Assembly (NCBI GenBank): GCA_000992695.1 | Contig: LBUS01000007.1 | Location: 1-60,346 of the forward strand | Length of the DNA stretch: 60,346 nt | Reading direction: 5' to 3' | From: Candidatus Peregrinibacteria bacterium GW2011_GWF2_38_29 | GTDB lineage: Bacteria > Patescibacteriota > Gracilibacteria > UBA1369 > UBA12463 | In this document: positions 3,923 to 5,581 of the stretch, one piece after another | How the letters are laid out: each line of letters opens with the position of its first letter | Numbering within the stretch: the first letter of the stretch is position 1 | Notes under the pieces: model-generated | The model's database searches: none | What the model saw: only the letters and a program-made list of their open reading frames with translations | What the model was told of the DNA's origin: nothing | Translations under genes and position numbers: made by a program

Positions 3923-4486
3923 ATGAATATATTTCCCATGCACGATGATGATCCGGAAATCGCAGCTAATAAACCAACTCCGATAGAAGAGCTACGAAAA
4001 CTCCAACAAGACGGCAGCCTTGATAAGGCGAGAAGTATGATTCAAAGTGGCGCTGACGTTTGGATGAGACGTAGCAACGGTCAATGGCAGCAATGCAAGG
4101 CGTTTCAATTGATTTTGGGTGGTCTTGAAGTTGGTTTAGCGTGGCAAGATCCAAAAGAGGGATCCCGGATGAAACATGTGCCGGTGAGTGATTTTCTTTA
4201 TTGGCAAACTTTGCGGCACGGCAATACTCCAAGTGCTTTCGCAGATGAAATAATGGATCTTGAACACGACGGTAGCATGGATAGAATAAGGGGAATGATC
4301 GATAATCGGACTGAGGCATGGGTTAGGCGTGATAATAATTCATGGCAAAAAGGTACGGTAACGCATTTATATGCAAGTGGGTCGCTGGTGGTAGTTAAGT
4401 GGTATGACAGAGACGAGAGAAAAGATATGGCAAAGATGATACCAGTCCGCGATTTTCTGCATTGGCAGGAGGAGCAGATTTTATAA
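3923..4486 (+). CDS. Orphan protein made of two tandem homologous repeats
   Basis: The 187-residue protein consists of two repeats of about 75 residues (roughly 20-95 and 110-183). Each opens with an acidic helix, continues through 'DGSLDKARSMI' or 'DGSMDRIRGMI', then 'VWMRRSNGQWQ' or 'AWVRRDNNSWQ', and closes with 'VPVSDFLYWQ' or 'IPVRDFLHWQ'. The Trp-rich beta part resembles SH3/Tudor-like small barrels, but I cannot assign a family. A consensus promoter drives it as a single gene. It is probably lineage-specific. Confidence 0.75.
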   Translation: MNIFPMHDDDPEIAANKPTPIEELRKLQQDGSLDKARSMIQSGADVWMRRSNGQWQQCKAFQLILGGLEVGLAWQDPKEGSRMKHVPVSDFLYWQTLRHGNTPSAFADEIMDLEHDGSMDRIRGMIDNRTEAWVRRDNNSWQKGTVTHLYASGSLVVVKWYDRDERKDMAKMIPVRDFLHWQEEQIL

Positions 4487-4497
4487 GCATTTCATGC

Positions 4498-4503
4498 TAT
4501 AAT
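4498..4503 (+). promoter_or_regulatory. -10 box of the cysteine-synthase operon leader
   Basis: A perfect TATAAT lies 9 nt before the leader-peptide ATG at 4513. No good -35 box is visible. The predicted start of transcription is near 4510. Confidence 0.5.
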
Positions 4504-4512
4504 GGCATCAGT

Positions 4513-4605
4513 ATGAAGCCATTAAACACTTACAATCAGGCAAATAATTGTTGTTGCAATCTTGGGATGATTCCGAGATTATATTGTTTGTGTTCGTGTC
4601 GATAG
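4513..4605 (+). CDS. Poly-cysteine leader peptide (attenuator peptide)
   Basis: A 30-codon ORF starts with ATG at 4513 and stops with TAG at 4603-4605. It contains six cysteine codons: three consecutive (TGT TGT TGC at 4549-4557, 'NNCCCNL') and three near the end ('YCLCSCR'). The triple-Cys run lies immediately before the 5' strand of a hairpin whose 3' strand can instead pair with the terminator. The next gene is a cysteine synthase. This is the layout of ribosome-mediated transcription attenuation, with cysteinyl-tRNA as the sensed signal. The ORF is nearly leaderless. The assignment rests on codon content and RNA pairing, not on homology. Confidence 0.75.
   Translation: MKPLNTYNQANNCCCNLGMIPRLYCLCSCR
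4558..4580 (+). promoter_or_regulatory. Attenuator hairpin 1, overlapping the anti-terminator
   Basis: AATCTTGG (4558-4565) pairs with CCGAGATT (4573-4580). The bases CCGAGA (4573-4578) can alternatively pair with TCTCGG (4634-4639), the 5' strand of the terminator. The two structures are mutually exclusive. A ribosome stalled at the three Cys codons would cover the 5' strand and favour anti-termination. Confidence 0.7.
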
Positions 4606-4631
4606 CGAATTTATAGAATTCAAACAACGCA

Positions 4632-4658
4632 ACTCTCGGAATAACCGGGAGTTTTTTT
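4632..4658 (+). terminator. Leader terminator of cysteine-synthase operon
   Basis: ACTCTCGG (4632-4639) pairs with CCGGGAGT (4645-4652) around a 5-nt loop and is followed by seven T. It lies 26 nt upstream of the cysteine synthase start, so it must be bypassed for expression. Confidence 0.85.
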
Positions 4659-4684
4659 ATTTATTCAATTTAACTTTTAAAACC

Positions 4685-5581
4685 ATGAAATACTCAAATT
4701 TATTACAAACAATCGGGAATACGCCAATGATAAAATTGGAAAAAATTCTTGATAATAAAAACGTAAACCTATTCGCAAAATTGGAAGGGCAAAATCCGGG
4801 CGGTTCAATAAAAGATAGAGCAGCTTTATACATGATTGAGCAAGCGGAAAAGAGTGGTGAACTTAAAAAGGGGAAAATAATTCTGGAGGCGACGAGCGGC
4901 AATATGGGTATTGCTCTTGCAATGATTGGCGCTCAAAAAGGCTATGAAGTCCAAATTGTTATGTCTGAAGGAATGAGCGAAGAACGCAAAACAATGCTTA
5001 AAGCACTTGGTGCAAAATTGATACTTACAGATAAAAGTCTTGGGACCGGAGGAGCTATAAATAAAGCAAAAGAGCTTGCTGAAAGTGCACCATTTTTATA
5101 TTGGTTTTCCAATCAATTTAATAATCAGAACAATGTTTTGGCTCATTACCATGGCGTTGCTGGAGAAATCTTGAACGAAGTTTCGCAGGTTGATTATTTG
5201 ATTGCAGGAATAGGGACTTCCGGGACAATCATTGGGATTGCGAGTAGGTTTAAAAAAGATTCTCCAAAAACCAAAATCATCGGAGTTTTTCCTCCGGGGG
5301 GTTACAAAATTCAGGGGCTGCAAAATCCGGAAGAAGACTTTAAGGGAGATATATATAAAAGCGAATTAATTGATGAGCAATTTCAAGTTTCAAAAGAGGA
5401 CGCATTTGAGATGGCAAGAAAAGTAGCTAAGAAAGAAGGTCTTTTCGTAGGGATGAGCTCCGGGGCGGCCCTTTTTGCGGCAAATGAAATAAGTAAATCA
5501 TTGGAGTCAGCAAATATAGTTGTTATAATACCAGACAGAGGAGAAAAATATCTGAGTACGGAGCTATTCGCAAAAATATAA
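4685..5581 (+). CDS. cysM: Cysteine synthase family (CysK/CysM), PLP enzyme
   Basis: The 298-residue protein is a fold-type II PLP enzyme that makes cysteine by replacing the acetyl (or phospho) group of an activated serine with sulfide. The Schiff-base lysine lies in 'NPGGSIKDRAAL' (about residue 44). The substrate loop is 'ATSGNMGIALAM', where most members have SGNTG. The phosphate-binding loop is 'GIGTSGTIIG'. The C-terminal 'PDRGEKYLSTELF' is typical. The length matches the CysM branch, although CysK, CysM and O-phosphoserine enzymes are hard to tell apart from sequence. Its leader carries a poly-Cys attenuator. The next two genes follow within 1 and 6 nt and probably share the transcript. 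Confidence 0.9.
   Translation: MKYSNLLQTIGNTPMIKLEKILDNKNVNLFAKLEGQNPGGSIKDRAALYMIEQAEKSGELKKGKIILEATSGNMGIALAMIGAQKGYEVQIVMSEGMSEERKTMLKALGAKLILTDKSLGTGGAINKAKELAESAPFLYWFSNQFNNQNNVLAHYHGVAGEILNEVSQVDYLIAGIGTSGTIIGIASRFKKDSPKTKIIGVFPPGGYKIQGLQNPEEDFKGDIYKSELIDEQFQVSKEDAFEMARKVAKKEGLFVGMSSGAALFAANEISKSLESANIVVIIPDRGEKYLSTELFAKI

Follow-up and report, generated by a model that had tools for sequence, protein, structure and literature searches.

The leader in front of a cysteine synthase gene of Patescibacteria is very probably a ribosome-mediated, trp-type transcription attenuator, predicted to sense charged tRNA-Cys. It lies in a window of 60,346 nucleotides, the whole stretch of DNA analysed here, from a 1.23 Mb genome of Peregrinibacteria type (G000). 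A leader ORF rich in codons for the pathway product, an intrinsic terminator, an antiterminator strand that excludes this terminator and a gene of the pathway downstream are all found at this locus. We found no description of a cysteine attenuator, or of any ribosome-mediated amino-acid attenuation, in Patescibacteria in the open-licence literature, in agreement with an initial annotation of this DNA, which knew of none in such organisms. The kind of device is already known. Its occurrence in this lineage and before this gene is new, as are the probably leaderless starts of many of the ORFs, one tandem case and a scattered recurrence.

Architecture of the cysteine synthase leader

The anatomy of the leader can be read directly (Table 1), and the cysteine-rich ORF, its triple Cys run and the adjoining hairpin that the initial annotation had described were recovered at the same positions on checking the sequence. 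Hairpin 1:2 (4558-4580) reads AATCTTGGGATGATTCCGAGATT and joins strand 1 to strand 2 in a 10 bp stem, the first pair of which is A-T in the window and G-C in the related genome G022. The alternative pairing of CCGAGA (4573-4578) with TCTCGG (4634-4639), also pointed out at the outset, proved to be the core of a predicted antiterminator of 8 bp in which 4571-4578 pairs with 4634-4641. This strand 2/strand 3 duplex has a predicted energy of -11.9 kcal/mol and begins, in the window leader, 12-13 nt past the last Cys codon of the run. The terminator noted just before the cysteine synthase was likewise verified as a stem with a T-tract, at a distance of 31 nt from the gene. A scan of the window against Rfam matched three tRNAs only, with no T-box or other known leader family. 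On the 5' side of the leader, the product of the gene at 3923-4486 is 187 aa long and contains a ~70-aa unit twice in tandem (MIQSGADVWMRRSNGQWQ... and MIDNRTEAWVRRDNNSWQ...); no Pfam family matched this protein above cut-off.

Table 1. Elements of the cysteine synthase leader, in window coordinates.
Feature	Position	Strand	Remarks
Extended -10 promoter element, TGcTATAAT	4495..4503	+	Read from sequence; ends 9 nt 5' of leader ATG
Leader peptide ORF, MKPLNTYNQANNCCCNLGMIPRLYCLCSCR and stop	4513..4605	+	Read from sequence; 30 codons, six Cys
Cys codons 13-15, TGT TGT TGC	4549..4557	+	Proposed stall (sensor) site
Strand 1	4558..4567	+	5' strand of hairpin 1:2
Strand 2	4571..4580	+	3' strand of hairpin 1:2; alternative partner, strand 3
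Second Cys cluster, Cys25, Cys27, Cys29	4585..4599	+	
Intrinsic terminator hairpin 3:4	4631..4653	+	9 bp, -11.8 kcal/mol; T-tract 4652-4658
Cysteine synthase	4685..5581	+	Gene predicted to be regulated

Because the extended -10 element ends so close to the ATG, the transcript in the window should start at about 4510-4513, almost at the leader start codon, and no Shine-Dalgarno sequence stands ahead of that codon. A -10-like hexamer ending 5-9 nt before the start codon was found for 10 of 20 leaders and for 17 of the 88 ORFs of the window (Fisher p=0.008), and this position of the element suggests that many leader transcripts are leaderless or nearly so. Within the window, a Shine-Dalgarno-like motif precedes the start in only 2 of 88 ORFs of at least 100 aa (some of them surely spurious), and initiation by Shine-Dalgarno sequences may matter little in this genome.

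In the proposed mechanism, transcription would begin at the leader ATG or a short way ahead of it and a ribosome would engage immediately. With Cys-tRNA scarce, we infer that this ribosome would stall at codons 13-15 and cover strand 1, leaving strand 2 to pair with strand 3 as an antiterminator, so that no terminator would form and cysteine synthase would be transcribed. With Cys-tRNA plentiful, or with the leader untranslated, hairpin 1:2 and/or a ribosome at the stop codon would hold strand 2 off strand 3; the free strand 3 would then enter terminator 3:4, and transcription would stop short of the gene. This simple attenuator model leaves the second Cys cluster, which comes after strand 2, unexplained, as slow translation at that point should place the ribosome over strand 2 and promote termination, opposite to the effect of the first cluster. 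The C-L-C of the second cluster is conserved in the leaders of G022 and G446, and a second cluster 3' of strand 2 also occurs at loci L003, L034, L050, L056, L066 and L070; in several leaders it may sharpen the response.

The enzyme itself belongs to the PLP-dependent CysK/CysM family, scoring 347 bits against NCBIfam TIGR01136 (cut-off 344) and also matching Pfam PALP, and the solved structures closest to it are of cysteine synthase B. Its nearest counterpart in a named genome, at 83% identity, is that of Candidatus Peregrinibacteria RIFOXYB2_FULL_33_20 (MFXK01000008.1, our G022), which is of the same order. A search of G000 for serine acetyltransferase (cysE) gave no match, the same search being positive in 14 of 14 control genomes, and the acceptor for the cysteine synthase may be imported O-acetylserine or O-phosphoserine.

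Recurrence, strand complementarity and folding

Mini-ORFs with a Cys-Cys pair, ending between -125 and -50 from cysK, precede 20 of 39 Patescibacteria cysteine synthase loci; 0.52 would be expected by dinucleotide shuffling, and the reverse strand contains none. The leader ORFs of G022 (L003) and G446 (L056) are homologous to that of the window, and those at 17 more Patescibacteria loci are analogous. Nearly all of the relatives' leaders contain Cys-Cys or Cys-Cys-Cys, usually three Cys codons, as in MKSTNIYNQINNCCCGLGIVPRSACLCS (G022), MNNKSDQKNCCCKACTKEVVFLYP (G067), MKHILFNLLVCCCPPGA (G019), MIYSQLISNCCCLSKEAPLES (G030), MLLISNCACCCCISCGGGCCK (G232), MMNSALRNTICCCTSLS (G328) and, from Moranbacteria, MKENLNKKIQKSCCCLETNISRTFCC (L066). 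A hairpin with a T-tract, the mark of an intrinsic terminator, lies 3' of nearly all of them. At many of the loci that have no such mini-ORF, cysK stands directly behind another gene. The initial annotation had named relatives without Cys codons or paired strands as the observation that would count against it, and both were found to recur in diverged Patescibacteria leaders.

Several cysteines per peptide, and two clusters in some leaders, would also suit a functional, metal- or thiol-binding product with a terminator that merely ends its own transcript. Against such a role, the peptides of distant relatives range from 16 to 30 residues and share no sequence beyond the Cys run, yet the positions of the RNA strands relative to that run are kept among these dissimilar leaders, and we regard a peptide function as extremely unlikely. 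Because the strand positions are fixed in this way, the attenuation model is directly testable by a simple reporter.

Only three leaders can be aligned (those of the window, G022 and G446), and tests of position and complementarity on unalignable leaders were therefore used in place of covariation statistics. For 18 leaders, mostly without recognisable similarity to one another, we scored how well the stretch separating the Cys run from the terminator complements the terminator 5' arm, with shuffles as the control; the arms were taken from a basic hairpin scan, some of them chosen by hand among its hits without regard to complementarity. Most of the 18 gave p<0.05 singly, and the Fisher combined p is about 1e-17, with p=0.037 for the duplex of the window leader. 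The position of the pairing strand is a direct observation as well: its median starting point lies 13 nt beyond the Cys run, approximately at the edge expected for a stalled ribosome.

Partition-function folding, in which the ribosome masked everything as far as 12 nt from the A-site codon's first base, pointed in the same direction in silico. With L042, L044 and L051 left out (for a terminator that is weak or badly positioned, or a recoded genome), the mean terminator probability was 0.22 when the ribosome was stalled at the final Cys of the run against 0.85 +/- 0.05 (standard deviation) in the shuffled-spacer control, a departure of 13 standard deviations. For a ribosome at the stop codon the mean was 0.95, which is largely a consequence of masking, the stalled value being the informative one. 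The window leader is among the weaker cases thermodynamically, with a stalled terminator probability of 0.50 versus 0.95 when shuffled (p=0.005), and two leaders show little effect, L005 (0.81) and the second leader of L058 (0.87, with a weak antiterminator). In L044 the terminator lies directly behind the leader stop with no space for an antiterminator, and in L042 it is weak. The four-strand design with hairpin 1:2 is seen in the window, G022, G446 and L066; in another design strand 2 and the leader stop codon overlap (e.g. L005, L035, L040 and L072), where a ribosome finishing the leader would cover strand 2.

One lone case could be accidental, a random Cys-codon ORF that happens to lie beside the ordinary terminator of the upstream gene. 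The excess of mini-ORFs over the shuffled expectation, the combined p value of the pairing and the distance of the stalled-state folding from its control all speak against this, leaving coincidence with a negligible probability, and the comparative counts refute it as the origin of the leaders. The trp-type attenuation logic put forward by the initial annotation, a prediction from sequence, is well supported by the same three bodies of evidence, namely recurrence, strand complementarity and stalled-state folding.

Several individual loci deserve separate mention. L058 (G609) carries two poly-Cys leader ORFs in series, at -275..-221 and -144..-75 before cysK, each with its own terminator behind it, in the manner of a tandem cysteine attenuator. 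At L059 (G358), a tRNA-like sequence, of leucine type as judged by eye, lies at about -220..-135 and ~14 nt ahead of the leader ORF, and this leader may be a product of tRNA-transcript processing. No further cysK was found around G446, G609 and G358. L051 (G126) has a Cys-rich leader-like ORF and a terminator at -200..-107 before cysK, in a lineage with in-frame TGA codons within cysK (a recoded genome). Cys-Cys-Cys mini-ORFs without a terminator also precede cysK in MAGs of Nanoarchaeota (L065), Thermoplasmata (L103) and Desulfobacteraceae (L108), which may reflect chance, misbinning or a translational version.

Relation to known attenuators

As in trp-, his- and leu-type attenuators, the Patescibacteria leaders combine a short ORF containing consecutive codons for the end product with mutually exclusive antiterminator and terminator hairpins, an intrinsic terminator and a biosynthetic gene downstream. 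They differ from these in that the predicted signal is cysteine, that the leader start is apparently leaderless, and that several are three-stranded, with the stop codon over strand 2 and no separate hairpin 1:2. The initial annotation had placed poly-Cys leaders in actinobacteria; this precedent holds, but predicted cysteine-directed attenuation is not confined to that group, since the uORFC-8-2 motif before cysS in Rhodobacterales carries an intrinsic terminator and has been predicted to act as a Cys attenuator (Brewer et al. 2021, PMC8632094). The uORFC-8-2 motif resembles the present leaders as a predicted attenuator with tandem Cys codons (two in uORFC-8-2) and an intrinsic terminator, whereas it precedes an aminoacyl-tRNA synthetase gene of Alphaproteobacteria and the leaders described here, of different sequence and usually with three Cys, precede cysteine synthase in Patescibacteria.

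The mycobacterial poly-Cys sORFs, leaderless ORFs whose Cys cluster is C-terminal (PMC4633059), are similar in being mini-ORFs at or near the 5' end of the transcript (a predicted position here), upstream of sulfur or cysteine genes. Their example raises the possibility that the Cys-rich ORF governs translation, with stalling exposing a downstream start or coupling translation, rather than transcription: actinobacterial poly-Cys leaders work without a conserved terminator hairpin (PMC1262725), PMC13236596, citing Canestrari et al. 2020, describes the mycobacterial ORFs as acting by translation attenuation, and a leaderless start may be common to both groups. In mycobacteria, however, the Cys run lies near the stop codon with no conserved terminator, whereas in Patescibacteria strand 2 and a terminator come after it. 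With its intrinsic terminator, the window leader does not fit the terminator-free regulation that marks the mycobacterial type. A hairpin and T-tract accompany nearly all the leaders, the competing strand is directed at the terminator 5' arm, and no Shine-Dalgarno sequence precedes cysK that could be sequestered, all of which make control of translation very unlikely as an account of these leaders.

Distribution and significance of the proposed cysteine attenuation

Cysteine synthase is patchy in these bacteria: in the order, 8 of the 89 genomes have it, as do 37 of 353 in the class (E<=1e-30) and 10 of 380 in an even draw of the phylum (E<=1e-40). Pattern searches for a Cys run followed by a T-tract, covering limited spacings and codon spellings, found in-frame Cys-run mini-ORFs with a terminator only before cysK in the examined genomes. 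On the cysteine synthase tree the leader is scattered, requiring 12 changes, of which at least 8 are forced by well-supported branches. A single origin is unsupported by a tree that needs so many changes, and this scatter indicates that the leader was gained or lost repeatedly, gains being indistinguishable from losses. We suggest tentatively, and with slightly less than even confidence, that Patescibacteria have repeatedly placed leaderless, cysteine-gated terminators before cysteine synthase genes that are patchy and were possibly acquired horizontally. Such a convergent and phylum-wide switch would let cells that are reduced and host-dependent turn the gene on only when supply fails and would need no regulatory protein.

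If cysteine attenuation is correct, the short list of known cysteine attenuators gains a case in which a biosynthetic gene is preceded by an intrinsic terminator. Ultra-small and largely uncultivated Patescibacteria would then sense an amino acid through classical ribosome-mediated attenuation, and the response to cysteine that we infer for the leader would predict when host-dependent Patescibacteria cells make their own cysteine.
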